From the IMG/VR virus record IMGVR_UViG_3300032236_000774, positions 1-42,943 of that record: a stretch of DNA of 42,943 nt, one strand, 5' to 3'. The translations under genes and the position numbers were made by a program. The notes below the pieces were generated by a model that saw only the letters and a list, made by a program, of their open reading frames with translations, did no database searches and had not been told where the DNA came from. Positions 9,227-14,094 of this stretch are shown one piece after another. Positions within the stretch are counted from its first letter, which is position 1. Each line of letters opens with the position of its first letter. Source of the DNA: a virus.

Positions 9227-9295
9227 TTACTTCAAAAAAATCCACATCCAAACACAAAAAACAACAGTCAAACAAATTGCTTTTATGTCGCTCAT
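9227..9295 (-). CDS. 22-residue membrane microprotein
   Basis: A short frame starting in an ATGA overlap with the preceding gene. The codons just before encode AAGGAG, serving as its ribosome binding site. The product is a single hydrophobic helix ('CLTVVFCVWMWIFL'), probably inserted in the membrane. It fills the 70-nt gap between two genes. Function unknown. Confidence 0.5.
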   Translation of the reverse strand: MSDIKAICLTVVFCVWMWIFLK

Positions 9296-9558
9296 CCGTT
9301 GCGCTCCTTTAACTTGGCTTTGACGGCTTTCAATACGCATGCAACAGTCGTGCAGTTGTTTTTGATTTCTTGCTCATCTTCAGGAGATAGCCAAACCCAT
9401 TCACGCTTTCGAGGCGCATGAACCATTTCATCACCCTCCCATACAGCACCGCATACGCAATTTAATTCAGGCTTTTGGGATTCAAGTTCAATGATGCGGT
9501 CAATCGCATTACGAGCAATCATGGCTACATCTTTAATTGCTTGTTCACTGTGCTTCAT
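9292..9558 (-). CDS. Modular early protein with REWVWL C-terminal module
   Basis: An 88-residue protein belonging to the array of related genes in 9292-11525. The N-terminal helix ('HSEQAIKDVAMIARNAIDR') is followed by a CxC pair ('NCVCGAVW'). The shared C-terminal module starts 'REWVWLSPEDE' and ends 'KAKLKERNG'. ATG 9558 is chosen over upstream codons because it overlaps the previous stop by ATGA and follows GGAGAAG. Function of the module is unknown. Confidence 0.65.
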   Translation of the reverse strand: MKHSEQAIKDVAMIARNAIDRIIELESQKPELNCVCGAVWEGDEMVHAPRKREWVWLSPEDEQEIKNNCTTVACVLKAVKAKLKERNG

Positions 9559-9728
9559 GTGTTCTTCTCCAAAAAGTCTTCGCACTTGCGCTTCCAGCCC
9601 CATGTCTCACGCATAACGTACACAGGCGCGTAAAAACGTGGTTTGTGCAACATTGCACAGATTAGCGTTGGCTTAGGCAGTGCTCTCATGGTGGTGTGTT
9701 TGCACTGGTCGCAGTTTTGAGTTTTCAT
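9555..9728 (-). CDS. 57-residue Cys-rich protein
   Basis: A gene below the usual length cut-off, bounded by ATGA overlaps on both sides. 'CDQCKHTT' at residues 6-13, a Cys at about 24 and 'KRKCEDF' near the end form a possible four-cysteine zinc site. The aromatic 'PRFYAPVYV' lies between. I recognise no named family. Its final codons contain GGAGAAGAAC, the ribosome binding site of the next gene. Confidence 0.65.
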   Translation of the reverse strand: MKTQNCDQCKHTTMRALPKPTLICAMLHKPRFYAPVYVMRETWGWKRKCEDFLEKNT

Positions 9729-10222
9729 GGCGCGTTCTTCTCCTTGAGTTTGGCTTCTATGGCGTGAATGAAAGCGGCCCGATCACCTTTCCATTCAAAC
9801 GCCCAAACAGTCTTGGCTTCTTTATCCGTCAGACCAACCCACTCACGCTGTGGTTGTGGGGTGTAGTACATACATTCCCCAGCATCACAGCACGCTTGTC
9901 GGTTTGGGCACTTATCGTCCCCATCATGGCAAGCCGGCCTATTCTTCTGCACAGGTGCTGGCTGTGGTTGTGGGGTGGTGTAAATTTTTGTGCTTGGTCT
10001 AAAGTCCAATCGCTCTAATGCAGCATTTGTAAACAATTCTCCGGCTGTTCCAATAGGCTCCTGCACAGGTTCTACAAAGGCTTGCTTGGCTACTTCAAAC
10101 TCCAATGCTCTGATGGCTTCGTATATGTACTCAGGCGCTCCGTCTTCAGTAGAGTATTCAAGATATTTGTCGCGCTCGTCCTTCAACGCCTCAAGCGCCT
10201 GTTTCATTGCTTCTTTAGTCAT
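9725..10222 (-). CDS. Modular early protein (helical N-module, Cys-rich linker, REWVGL C-module)
   Basis: A 165-residue member of the paralogous array. Residues 1-50 are the helical module beginning 'TKEAMKQALEALK'. Next come 'QEPIGTAGELF' and 'IYTTPQPQPAPV', a proline-rich linker. A Cys-rich stretch follows ('ACHDGDDKCPNRQACC', 'GECMYYTPQPQ'), then the 'REWVGLTDKEAK' module ending 'AKLKEKN'. The linker 'TTPQPQ' occurs twice, which suggests insertion of the Cys-rich piece between two copies. Function unknown. Such genes are frequent in phages of freshwater betaproteobacteria. Confidence 0.65.
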   Translation of the reverse strand: MTKEAMKQALEALKDERDKYLEYSTEDGAPEYIYEAIRALEFEVAKQAFVEPVQEPIGTAGELFTNAALERLDFRPSTKIYTTPQPQPAPVQKNRPACHDGDDKCPNRQACCDAGECMYYTPQPQREWVGLTDKEAKTVWAFEWKGDRAAFIHAIEAKLKEKNAP

Positions 10223-10225
10223 GTC

Positions 10226-10792
10226 TTATTCCTTTATGCCGTGGGCGGCTAACTGTTTTACCAAAAAATCATCATAAGTATGGCCCGCCGCATGATGGCG
10301 AATCCATGCGTTGTATTCGTCTGCAACCTCTCGCAACACGTTCATGTCCGGTGACTCGATGGATCGCACAAATGGATGTAGGTCTGCGTCTTCAATCATC
10401 CATTGGTCGCCATCCCATTTGCCGCCACACTTTTTGAACTTGGCCTCAATCTCCTCATCCGTCAGCGGCTTGCGCTTTGGTGGGGTGGTGTAAAGAGGTG
10501 CTACAGCCTGCTCTCCGTTGGCGACTGCGTGGTATCGAGTGCGGTACAGATTCCCAGACGGAGAAAACCAAGCCACCGGCTCTTGCTTCTCAGCGGCTTT
10601 GCACTTGTCGCAGTCGTGGTTGACGCAGCCAATTTTTGGCATATCTGCCTGCTCAACGGCTTGGCGTAGGGCGGTGATAGCTTGGCTATGGGCACGCCTT
10701 TCTTGGACATACGTTTCAGCGCTTTTGCCGACCCGTTCTGGCAAGCTGAGTTCCAACGCCTCAAGCGCCATCTTCATTGCGGTGATGCTCAT
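10226..10792 (-). CDS. Modular early protein with QEPVA and Cys modules
   Basis: A 188-residue member of the array. It has the N-terminal module 'SITAMKMALEALE', then 'AITALRQAVEQA', the short Cys module 'GCVNHDCDKCKA', 'QEPVAWFSPSGNLYRT' and 'PLYTTPPKRKPLTDEEI'. The C-terminal part ('EVADEYNAWIRHHAAGHTYDDFL') differs from its relatives. The first 18 nt after its start are identical to those of the 11525 gene, so the two N-termini duplicated recently. AAGGAGAAGAAC before the ATG is its ribosome binding site and lies inside the preceding gene. Confidence 0.65.
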   Translation of the reverse strand: MSITAMKMALEALELSLPERVGKSAETYVQERRAHSQAITALRQAVEQADMPKIGCVNHDCDKCKAAEKQEPVAWFSPSGNLYRTRYHAVANGEQAVAPLYTTPPKRKPLTDEEIEAKFKKCGGKWDGDQWMIEDADLHPFVRSIESPDMNVLREVADEYNAWIRHHAAGHTYDDFLVKQLAAHGIKE

Positions 10793-10974
10793 GTGTTCTT
10801 CTCCTTGAGGGTTTCTATTGCCATCAAAATAGCTTGACGTCTTGTTATTGAGAAAGCCTCAATTTGCAAAATGTCATCAATCGTCAACCCAACCCATTCA
10901 CGTTTTGGCTGGCAAAACCCACAGTCATGGTTTACACAGCCAAGTTTTGTAATTCCTGTTTCATCTTGGTTCAT
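10789..10974 (-). CDS. Short modular early protein (Cys module fused to REWVGL module)
   Basis: A 61-residue protein that is little more than two modules of its neighbours: 'GCVNHDCGFCQ', matching the Cys module of the 10226-10792 gene, joined directly to 'REWVGLTIDDI', ending 'LKEKNT'. ATG 10974 is chosen for the ATGA overlap with the previous stop and the AAGGAG just before it. It looks like a deletion or recombination product of a longer relative. Confidence 0.65.
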   Translation of the reverse strand: MNQDETGITKLGCVNHDCGFCQPKREWVGLTIDDILQIEAFSITRRQAILMAIETLKEKNT

Positions 10975-11525
10975 CCGTTGCGCTCCTTGAGTTTGGCTGA
11001 GATAACGCAAACAATGTCGGCAAAGACAAAATTATTTGAGACTTTATTGGCAAATACTTGTTCAAGCCAATCAAAATCCGCAGGCGTCAGCCAAACCCAT
11101 TCACGCTGTGGTTGCGGGGTGGCTTCACAAGCTTTGTAAGCCCCATTGCTCCACGCAATCTTTGCGATTTGGTAGCAGTGTTCTTCGCAGTCAAAACGAT
11201 GCTTTGGTGCTGTGCTTCCTTCTTCGTCCCACCATTTTTCGAAAGCTTTGTCAGCCACCGGCTCCTGCTTCACCAAAAATTCCTGACGGTAGTGGTGATC
11301 GTTCATCATCAGCTCGCTTTCATGCACTGATTTTTTCTCTGCTTGCTCTATGGCTTGGCGACCTGCTGTGATGGCAGCTTCAATCAGCTCAACTGAATCA
11401 GAATCATTAGGTGCAAGATGTTCATAGCCCTTAAACTTTTGTGCGTTTTCAAACTGCTCGTCTTTGGCGTATTCCAATCCACGTTCCAACGCCTCAAGCA
11501 TTTGTTTCATTGCGGTGATGCTCAT
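10971..11525 (-). CDS. Modular early protein, longest intact form
   Basis: A 184-residue protein with the same layout as its neighbours. The N-terminal module 'SITAMKQMLEALERG' is followed by a helical stretch with 'AAITAGRQAIEQAEKK', then 'KQEPVADKAFEKWWDEEG', two Cys residues in 'FDCEEHCYQ', the linker 'ATPQPQ' and the final 'REWVWLTPADF' module ending 'AKLKERNG'. 'QEPVADKAFEKWWDEE' is common in phage hypothetical proteins. No catalytic motif is visible. It overlaps the gene upstream by ATGA. Confidence 0.65.
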   Translation of the reverse strand: MSITAMKQMLEALERGLEYAKDEQFENAQKFKGYEHLAPNDSDSVELIEAAITAGRQAIEQAEKKSVHESELMMNDHHYRQEFLVKQEPVADKAFEKWWDEEGSTAPKHRFDCEEHCYQIAKIAWSNGAYKACEATPQPQREWVWLTPADFDWLEQVFANKVSNNFVFADIVCVISAKLKERNG

Positions 11526-11707
11526 AGCATGTCATCTTCATCAAATATCTTGCCAAAAGAACGGTTCGTTTCCTTTTGTTCACGGCGGTAGTTTTCTAGG
11601 TTCTGAATGAAAAGAAATGCGCTTGCACCATCTCCTTCAATCCCACCATCTTCTTTAACTTCCATGCCAGACATGGTTGCGATTCTTATAAGATCACCTA
11701 AGTTCAT
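11522..11707 (-). CDS. Hypothetical early protein
   Basis: A 61-residue acidic protein. ATG 11707 overlaps the end of the first operon gene by 14 nt and starts 'MNLGDLIRIATMSG'. An upstream in-frame Met at 11734 would lie deep within that gene and is less likely. The C-terminal half is polar with a 'FDEDD' end. No family recognised. Confidence 0.55.
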   Translation of the reverse strand: MNLGDLIRIATMSGMEVKEDGGIEGDGASAFLFIQNLENYRREQKETNRSFGKIFDEDDML

Positions 11708-11894
11708 CTTTTTTCTCCATAAAAAGTTGGTCAATCGGTTTAAGTTGTCTGTATGTGGCTGTCTCTATCGCAGTGATCAGAACAGCTACTACAGCAGCGT
11801 CTAAGTCCTCCACCAAAGTGTGAGGTTCCAGCTTCTCTGTTGCGTAAGCAATCAGTTCGTAAGCTGTGTTGAATTCAAGGTGTTGTGGGCTCAT
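11694..11894 (-). CDS. Hypothetical protein, first gene of the leftward early operon
   Basis: A 66-residue helical protein with no recognised family. Its start is 118 nt from the first rightward gene, facing away from it, so it is the promoter-proximal gene of the long leftward operon. A hydrophobic stretch 'AAVVAVLITAIETA' is too short and mixed for a confident membrane segment. A GGTG lies just upstream of the ATG, so the ribosome binding site is weak. Confidence 0.55.
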   Translation of the reverse strand: MSPQHLEFNTAYELIAYATEKLEPHTLVEDLDAAVVAVLITAIETATYRQLKPIDQLFMEKKDELR

Positions 11895-13160: not shown

Positions 13161-13409
13161 ATGGAATACGACAACACAAACCGTGGCTCACTTTTCAAGA
13201 ACGAAAAGAAAGAGGAAGAGAAACACCCAGACATGAATGGTTCACTCAACGTCAATGGCGTTGAATACTGGATCAGTGGATGGAAGAAAACCAGCAAAGC
13301 AGGTACAGGCTTCATCAGTCTGTCTATCCGTCCCAAGCAAGAACAGTCTCGTCAGGTTAGCCAGCCAACACGCAAGGCTAAACAAGAGTTTTCTGACTTG
13401 GACTTTTGA
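13161..13409 (+). CDS. DUF736-like small protein
   Basis: An 82-residue protein recalling DUF736-type phage and plasmid proteins. 'YDNTNRGSLFKNEKK' at the N-terminus, then 'GSLNVNGVEYWISGWKKTSK' and 'GFISLSIRPK' form a small beta domain with a basic surface. A basic and acidic tail follows ('KAKQEFSDLDF'), similar to the acidic tip of single-strand DNA-binding proteins. Placement directly after ERF (no gap) fits a DNA-binding or SSB-like role, which is inference. The structured RNA begins 3 nt after its stop. Confidence 0.65.
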   Translation: MEYDNTNRGSLFKNEKKEEEKHPDMNGSLNVNGVEYWISGWKKTSKAGTGFISLSIRPKQEQSRQVSQPTRKAKQEFSDLDF

Positions 13410-13411
13410 TT

Positions 13412-13583
13412 AACGGGGCTGAAAGTTGATGCTGTGTGAGTTGCGTAGCGAACCACGAGTAAAGCAAGTAAGCCCCACCTATTACGGGGGGAAAGCGGAT
13501 TTTGCGCCTTATCGGGAAAGCTGCCGGTGACCAACAGACATATCGTCTGACAAGTGCAAAGCCGCAAGTACCCCCACCTATTT
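13412..13583 (+). ncRNA. Tandem two-domain structured RNA in the leader of the DUF3310 gene
   Basis: About 170 nt of noncoding sequence in two successive domains with shared ends. Domain 1 (13413-13483) is closed by GGGGCT (13415-13420) and AGCCCC (13471-13476). Inside are stacked helices GCT/AGC, GTG/CAC, GTT/AAC and GC/GC. Domain 2 (13484-13582) is closed by GGGGG (13486-13490) and CCCCC (13571-13575), with GCGG/CCGC, TTTGC/GCAAA and a CAGAC/GTCTG hairpin (13535-13549). Both have ACGGGG then GAAAG at the start, and AAGTA, C-run and ACCTATT at the end. The second ends one base before the DUF3310 start codon. I cannot match it to a known riboswitch or ribozyme. Confidence 0.6.
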
Positions 13584-13811
13584 ATGAACGCACTAGAAAC
13601 CCAAATTGACGGGGCACATTACAAAGATTTGCCCATACAGCCTGCTGAATACATCCATGCCAATGCAATGGGCTACATGGAAGGAAATGTCGTGAAATAT
13701 GTTTCTCGCTGGAGAAAGAAAAACGGCATCAACGACTTACTGAAGGCTAAACACTACATAGACCTTCTTATCGAACTGGAGAAAAAATATGGCAACCTTT
13801 CAAGCACTTGA
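13584..13811 (+). CDS. DUF3310 family protein
   Basis: A 75-residue protein of the DUF3310 group, common in phages. The signature is complete: 'YKDLPIQPAEYIHANAMGYMEGNVVKYVSRWRKKNGINDLLKAKHYIDLLIE' falls in two helices with 'GNVVKY..RW..KNG..DL.KA..Y'. Members are sometimes called nucleotide kinase-like, without proven activity. ATG 13584 is unusual: there is no Shine-Dalgarno, and CCCCCACCT, an anti-SD-like tract, precedes it as part of the structured RNA. Thus the RNA probably controls translation. It overlaps the MazG-like gene by 23 nt. Confidence 0.82.
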   Translation: MNALETQIDGAHYKDLPIQPAEYIHANAMGYMEGNVVKYVSRWRKKNGINDLLKAKHYIDLLIELEKKYGNLSST

Positions 13812-14094
13812 GATTGATGTACTGCGTTGGGCTGAAGCTCGAAAAATTATTCCCAATAGTACCCCCCAGGCTCAATTTTTAAAAGCAGTGTCTGAAATGG
13901 GTGAGCTTGCTGATGCGTTGAGCAAAAAAAATTCCCACGACATTCAAGATGCGGTGGGTGATGTGACAGTTTGCTTGATTAATATGTGCGCTTTGCTTGA
14001 CATTACATTCACGGAATGTCTCGAAATGGCATATCTGCAAATCAAAGATCGCAAGGGAACTTTACTGCCATCAGGTGTGTTTGTAAAGGAATGA
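13789..14094 (+). CDS. MazG-like nucleotide pyrophosphohydrolase
   Basis: A 101-residue all-helical protein of the MazG-like/dUTPase-like group that hydrolyses nucleoside triphosphates. Visible is 'FLKAVSEMGELADAL' (residues 30-44), matching the ExxELxxA helix that binds Mg2+, and 'DIQDAVGDVTVCLINMC', matching the second acidic helix (xxDxxxDxxV). Length fits single-domain phage MazG. The likely role is balancing nucleotide pools or alarmones during replication. It starts within the DUF3310 gene and is translationally coupled to it. Confidence 0.78.
   Translation: MATFQALEIDVLRWAEARKIIPNSTPQAQFLKAVSEMGELADALSKKNSHDIQDAVGDVTVCLINMCALLDITFTECLEMAYLQIKDRKGTLLPSGVFVKE

Follow-up and report, generated by a model that had tools for sequence, protein, structure and literature searches.

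A family of structured phage RNAs lying just past stop codons, with ends that may imitate a tRNA acceptor

Two structured RNA domains between ssb and DUF3310

The window, a virus record of 42,943 bases, contains two RNA domains in tandem between ssb (13161-13409) and a DUF3310 gene (ATG at 13584), in the following arrangement:

13161-13409, plus strand: ssb, a small single-stranded DNA-binding protein of 82 amino acids with the acidic tail SDLDF; TGA stop at 13407-13409
13410-13414, plus strand: spacer UUAAC, 5 nt, from the ssb stop to copy 1 (mostly 4-8 nt in the family)
13415-13476, plus strand: element copy 1 (fold z -2.8; found by structural scan and covariance model)
13415-13420 with 13471-13476, plus strand: outer helix P1 of copy 1, GGGGCU/AGCCCC
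13421-13424 (GAAA) opposite 13466-13470 (AAGUA), plus strand: bulged-G loop of copy 1
13425-13465, plus strand: P2 and variable interior of copy 1
13477-13479, plus strand: ACC immediately 3' of copy 1 P1, resembling A73-C74-C75
13486-13575, plus strand: element copy 2 (fold z -4.2; found by structural scan)
13486-13490 with 13571-13575, plus strand: P1 of copy 2, GGGGG/CCCCC
13491-13494 (GAAA) opposite 13566-13570 (AAGUA), plus strand: loop of copy 2
Within 13486-13575, plus strand: P2 of copy 2, GCGG/CCGC, and an interior consisting of a three-way junction and two hairpins
13576-13578, plus strand: ACC immediately 3' of copy 2 P1
13584-13811, plus strand: DUF3310 gene (PF11753, E 4.5e-12), its ATG 5 nt past the ACC and without a Shine-Dalgarno sequence
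13789-14094, plus strand: MazG-type pyrophosphohydrolase gene, next in the operon (PF03819 at the cut-off, 22 bits)

The SSB matches two protein families described as single strand DNA binding protein, PHROG 7364 (E 3e-19) and PHROG 18154 (E 2e-18). Elsewhere in the window, the minus strand of 9292-11894 carries an array of small, apparently paralogous open reading frames with a common C-terminal tail resembling AKLKEKN.

As an earlier note on this DNA had described, the two domains have common ends (both open with ACGGGG..GAAAG and finish with GCAAGTA..CCCC-ACCTATT) and are closed by the P1 helices at the positions listed. Both are real structured RNA, folding on the plus strand only: domain 1 folds at -22.9 kcal/mol (z -2.8 against shuffled sequence; reverse strand z -0.8) and domain 2 at -40.2 kcal/mol (z -4.2; reverse strand z -1.8). 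In both copies, GAAA stands opposite AAGUA, and GAA/AGUA is the signature of the bulged-G, or sarcin-ricin, motif. The bait AAGTAN{0,4}CCCACCTATT has two matches in the window, whereas 100 shuffles gave none. Copy 1, which was itself part of the covariance model, matched that model at 29.1 bits (E 5e-5), while copy 2, like other members with long interiors, was missed by the model (R1), probably because its interior measures 71 nt.

The earlier note could assign the RNA to no known class, and neither could we: at gathering score, neither the window nor any of 17 related loci matched an Rfam 15 family, an unrelated int-alpA RNA (RF02996) aside, which lies above threshold at 6272-6348 of L107, a related phage contig. 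Below threshold, only a 26-base partial match to nuoG appeared (E 0.21). Neither ARAGORN nor Rfam predicted a tRNA in the window. It had also been proposed that CCCC at 13473-13476 and GGGG at 13486-13489 pair in a mutually exclusive structure. The minimum free energy is -63.1 kcal/mol without constraint and -52.0 kcal/mol when this pairing is forced, and the pairing has a probability of 0.0; a tandem switch is thus rejected, since the rival pairing costs 11 kcal/mol and members with a single copy cannot form it.

Extent and genomic position of the family

The two domains of the window represent a single family of phage RNAs, here in tandem, that is found between co-directional genes. Approximately 110 distinct copies were collected, all in phage contigs; they were seen in metagenomic contigs, and the slot that they occupy was compared in a few phage genome records. 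The family is widespread and apparently undescribed, a search of open-licence papers having found no description of it. Its consensus consists of P1 closing on a G:C pair, a sarcin-ricin-type loop (GAA/AGUA), P2, a freely variable interior, and A-C-C after P1. Constant features are the G:C-closed P1, in most cases the loop, and N-C-C directly behind P1, most often as ACC; everything else can vary.

The first relatives were recovered with a pattern for the 3' half, and dozens more with two-part patterns, one of which omitted the ACCTAT bait. A structural scan of the collected loci for P1, GAAA/RAGUA and P2 gave 102 matches against 2 in reversed sequence, most of the loci having been obtained with sequence baits; a looser scan for the GAA/AGUA core gave 116 distinct cores, of which a handful are chance matches. 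Of the 34 records searched with the covariance model, 28 have matches, at a single place in each phage record and with tandem pairs; the three bacterial genomes among the 34 have none. None of 767 bacterial genomes contained the strict pattern, exact long 3'-end patterns had no viral match, blastn of the elements against isolated phages gave chance or flanking-gene matches only, and the eight matches of a genome-contig scan included no convincing member. The element is often in tandem, with pairs recurring in L031, L226, L230, L249, L259, L261, L268 and L362.

A set of 69 representatives, which includes a few chance matches, has a G:C closing pair in 59 (both window copies included), C or U at position -1 in 57 and C at position 74 in 62. 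The second P1 pair varies with compensation (GAGG/CCTC, GTCC/GGAC, GATGG/CCATC, GCGGG/CCCGC). Since position 76 is not conserved as A and is mostly U, the tail is ACC rather than ACCA; some members (L227, L228 and the L254 group) end in ACU or AUU. Four loci (L227, L228, L232 and L236) carry an additional hairpin, GUUCC-UUCAC-GGGAAC with the loop UUCAC, between the stop codon and the element, and a second GCUUCACAUAC loop within the element.

Of 57 listed cases across all members, 39 have the first element beginning 4-8 nt past a stop codon; the preceding stop codons are TAA (32), TGA (16) and TAG (9). Stop-codon readthrough and a SECIS element were rejected, as all three stop codons occur; in most loci no long open reading frame runs through the element, and in the window the frame stays open for only 9 more codons. 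The most frequent upstream gene encodes an SSB from one of at least three unrelated families (PHROG 7364/18154; Enc34/gp2.5-like PF10991; and, by inspection, an OB-type SSB sequence in L290), and other upstream genes encode a PD-(D/E)XK nuclease, an HTH protein and another small protein. Downstream genes include those for DNA polymerase, primase/helicase, MazG and DUF3310. The association is with the preceding gene, whether ssb or another one that supplies the stop codon, and not with DUF3310 or MazG: in 80 loci with the closest DUF3310 relatives, the structure is absent directly upstream of DUF3310, and the ten model matches in nine of these loci are distant from that gene.

The DUF3310 ATG had been described as lacking a ribosome binding site, and this holds: the best anti-Shine-Dalgarno duplex at 13584 reaches only -0.2 kcal/mol, against -3.3 to -8.5 for neighboring genes. 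Seven listed elements (window, L214, L310, L329, L330, L339 and L383) have an ATG 3-7 nt past the trailing CC without a Shine-Dalgarno sequence; among these is L310, where a single copy is followed directly by DUF3310. The remaining start codons of the family lie at least 12 nt from the trailing CC, most with a Shine-Dalgarno sequence, and none of the listed elements has one at 8-11 nt. In L034, L064, L067 and L225, a mini-hairpin, CGGUAACCGUAAUG, precedes the DNA polymerase start codon in place of a Shine-Dalgarno sequence.

Covariation and exchange of structures behind ssb

A test set was chosen by protein only, comprising 80 loci with relatives of the window SSB and 70 distinct downstream sequences. 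The loop-bearing element is present in 41 of the 70, and in 37 of these it starts 4-6 nt past the ssb stop codon. The triplet after P1, whose bases were not used in the selection, is ACC in 32 of the 41 and N-C-C in 39; conservation of the ACC may partly reflect common descent. As 29 of the 70 loci are without the loop-bearing form, the element is not essential for this gene order. In at least four further loci (L361, L371, L373 and L384), the helix is kept and ordinary pairs replace the loop motif, giving a continuous helix; an automatic scan read ACC in three of them and CTC in L373.

The earlier note had named covariation as a check on its helices. Our first count was discounted for P1, since pairing had served in the selection, and was redone on 31 ssb-selected sequences whose anchors were sequence motifs and not pairing, two mis-anchored rows included. 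P1 covaries in this set, with pairing of 93.5% and a covariation score of 0.478, compared with 0.138 in shuffled and at most 0.169 in slid controls; because the sequences are related, the shuffles overstate the significance, while the slid controls keep the relatedness. Among the sequence-anchored members, P1 is paired in 152 of 160 cells, against 124 after shuffling.

Interiors differ in length and sequence between members. They are exchangeable and are swapped between relatives: in L325, whose SSB is 94% identical to that of the window, copy 2 is almost unchanged and the interior of copy 1 has been replaced. L049 has a tRNA-Thr(UGU) inside its element (Rfam RF00005, 30 bits, cut-off 29), and L362 shows by eye a hairpin resembling a T-arm, where ARAGORN calls no tRNA. 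In Burkholderia phage Bm1 (PP183292), an annotated tRNA-Met with the ends GGGCGG..CCGCCC-ACCA lies 6 nt past the ssb stop codon and before DNA polymerase. Lake phage DSL-LC05, which shares 89% DNA polymerase identity with the family member L064, has GGGAUCGG..CCGAUCCC-ACC in the equivalent slot, an unrelated stem from which the loop motif is absent. These slot occupants have in common a G:C-closed helix with ACC behind it; other slot structures, those of L353/L359 and the Sashaviruses, end in UCU or AUU. The former belong to a different, longer structured RNA that has no Rfam match and lies directly past the ssb stop codon in L345, L353 and L359 (approximately 1705-1840 in each locus), with the form GGGGGCAUCG..CGAUGCCCCC and the conserved interior GGGCAGGACUGGAUAGCUAAGAC. 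In the Sashavirus isolates Bas82 and KP13-27 (L390 1450-1500, L397 180-230), a short GGGGC-CAUAGU-GCCCC hairpin stands 8 nt past the ssb stop codon and before DNA polymerase.

A possible imitation of the tRNA acceptor end

Bacterial RNase P RNA reads the G1:C72 pair, N-1, and pairing of the 3' RCC(A) with GGU (PMC11143913), and the enzyme cuts the phage M3 and C4 RNAs as well as mRNAs (PMC11143913; PMC12710915). As the features of the element match those that RNase P RNA reads, and as RNase P cuts RNAs other than tRNAs, we infer that it may cleave here. On our analysis, the chances are evenly balanced that the G1:C72 helix with A73-C74-C75 mimics a tRNA acceptor end and that RNase P cuts the polycistronic mRNA just past ssb, which makes this the best of the readings considered. 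It is supported by the tRNA-Met in the Bm1 slot, the tRNA within the L049 element and the G1:C72-ACC end kept by DSL-LC05.

In the mechanism we propose, P1 and the ACC would imitate the acceptor end (G1:C72, discriminator 73, C74 and C75), and host RNase P would bind the element, the ACC pairing with the GGU of its P15 loop. The enzyme would then cut before G1, at the predicted sites C13414/G13415 and C13485/G13486. This would split the polycistronic message just past ssb; the downstream mRNA would begin with a base-paired 5' end, and the two halves could then decay at different rates. More speculatively, where starts without a Shine-Dalgarno sequence lie 3-7 nt past the ACC, as in the window, initiation might be made possible by further cleavage at the 3' end of the tRNA-like part, giving a nearly leaderless mRNA, or by direct transfer of ribosomes across the helix.

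Both the G1:C72 first pair and the 3' R-C-C tail of RNase P substrates are present in the element. P1, four non-canonical pairs and P2 could stack to a length similar to that of a 12-bp acceptor/T domain, with a T-loop only in L049 and L362. Against acceptor mimicry, the GAA/AGUA loop and a P1 of 4-6 bp are unlike the normal 12-bp acceptor/T stack. The mostly U position 76, the members ending in ACU or AUU, the slot structures with UCU or AUU ends and the 29 ssb loci lacking the loop-bearing form also count against it. The fuller proposal, that phage-specific acceptor mimics with an exchangeable interior recruit RNase P past stop codons, in the manner of tRNA punctuation but without tRNAs, and produce some nearly leaderless mRNAs, is one we put forward tentatively.

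A rigid structure past the stop codon could instead block 3'-to-5' exonucleases and raise the level of ssb mRNA relative to that of the following genes, without RNase P. The position directly past the SSB stop codon, the strong folding and the freely variable interior all suit such an intercistronic stability element, as do the plain GC hairpin that fills the slot in Sashaviruses and the continuous helix that replaces the loop motif in L361, L371, L373 and L384. We nevertheless consider it rather unlikely, as it leaves the invariant G:C closing pair, the N-C-C tail, the GAA/AGUA loop and the tRNAs in the slot unexplained, and as genes other than ssb (nuclease, HTH and others) also precede the element.

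Less probable again is structure-mediated translational coupling, in which the helix would loop out the spacer and the ribosome restart at the next start codon. A first helix 4-8 nt past the stop codon, and the seven listed elements with an ATG 3-7 nt past the CC, none lying at 8-11 nt, would fit this arrangement; however, most downstream genes, starting at least 12 nt away, have their own Shine-Dalgarno sequence, the path is longer where copies are in tandem, and the ACC and the loop motif would be left unexplained.

The sarcin-ricin-type loop, as the most conserved interior feature, might alternatively serve as an operator bound by a protein of the phage or the host (for example in SSB autoregulation) or by RNA polymerase (as in put-like antitermination), and the presence of the element behind ssb genes of at least three unrelated families, at one place per phage record, would be in keeping with this. 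We think it improbable, slightly more so than coupling, because natural variants in the same slot are without the loop, a single RNA target common to unrelated SSB families is unlikely, and we found no sequence in common with known operators.

The earlier note's own interpretation, a riboswitch or tandem switch controlling DUF3310 and MazG, drew on a stable, tandem structure directly before a gene without a Shine-Dalgarno sequence, but we regard it as very improbable: the link to DUF3310 is incidental, interiors are swapped and differ even among close relatives, so that there is no conserved ligand-binding core, no expression platform is evident (terminator, Shine-Dalgarno sequestration or alternative pairing, the window having no Shine-Dalgarno to sequester), Rfam gives no match, and the element directly adjoins the preceding gene instead of occupying a 5' leader.

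Of known systems, the tRNA-Met of Bm1 occupies the same slot and has the same G1:C72-ACC end pattern, but is a full tRNA, whereas the window elements, negative in ARAGORN and Rfam, are not. Intercistronic REP/BIME hairpins are likewise structures between genes that alter relative expression, and are chromosomal repeats present in many copies; the phage element, in contrast, usually has one locus per phage and, by the strict pattern, is absent from the 767 bacterial genomes. The tRNA-like structures of the plant viruses TYMV and TMV also imitate a tRNA end and serve as RNase P substrates (PMC12710915), but lie at the genome 3' end and have pseudoknots, while the phage elements lie between genes and have a sarcin-ricin-type loop. 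There is also a likeness to the non-tRNA substrates of RNase P, among them phage M3 RNA, the C4 antisense RNA of phages P1/P7, pre-4.5S RNA and polycistronic mRNAs: these are structured RNAs within longer transcripts, which the enzyme recognizes by an acceptor-like helix and a 3' RCC and cuts (PMC11143913, PMC12710915). The present RNAs differ from them in forming a recurring family with its own loop motif, located just past stop codons between genes, and in that their cleavage is predicted.

The replication operons of many environmental phages contain, at a fixed place, a large and apparently undescribed RNA family. If RNase P does act on it, these phages would divide their own messages using the tRNA enzyme of the host, which would account for some phage genes that start without a Shine-Dalgarno sequence, and the element would provide a marker of operon structure for viral metagenomes.
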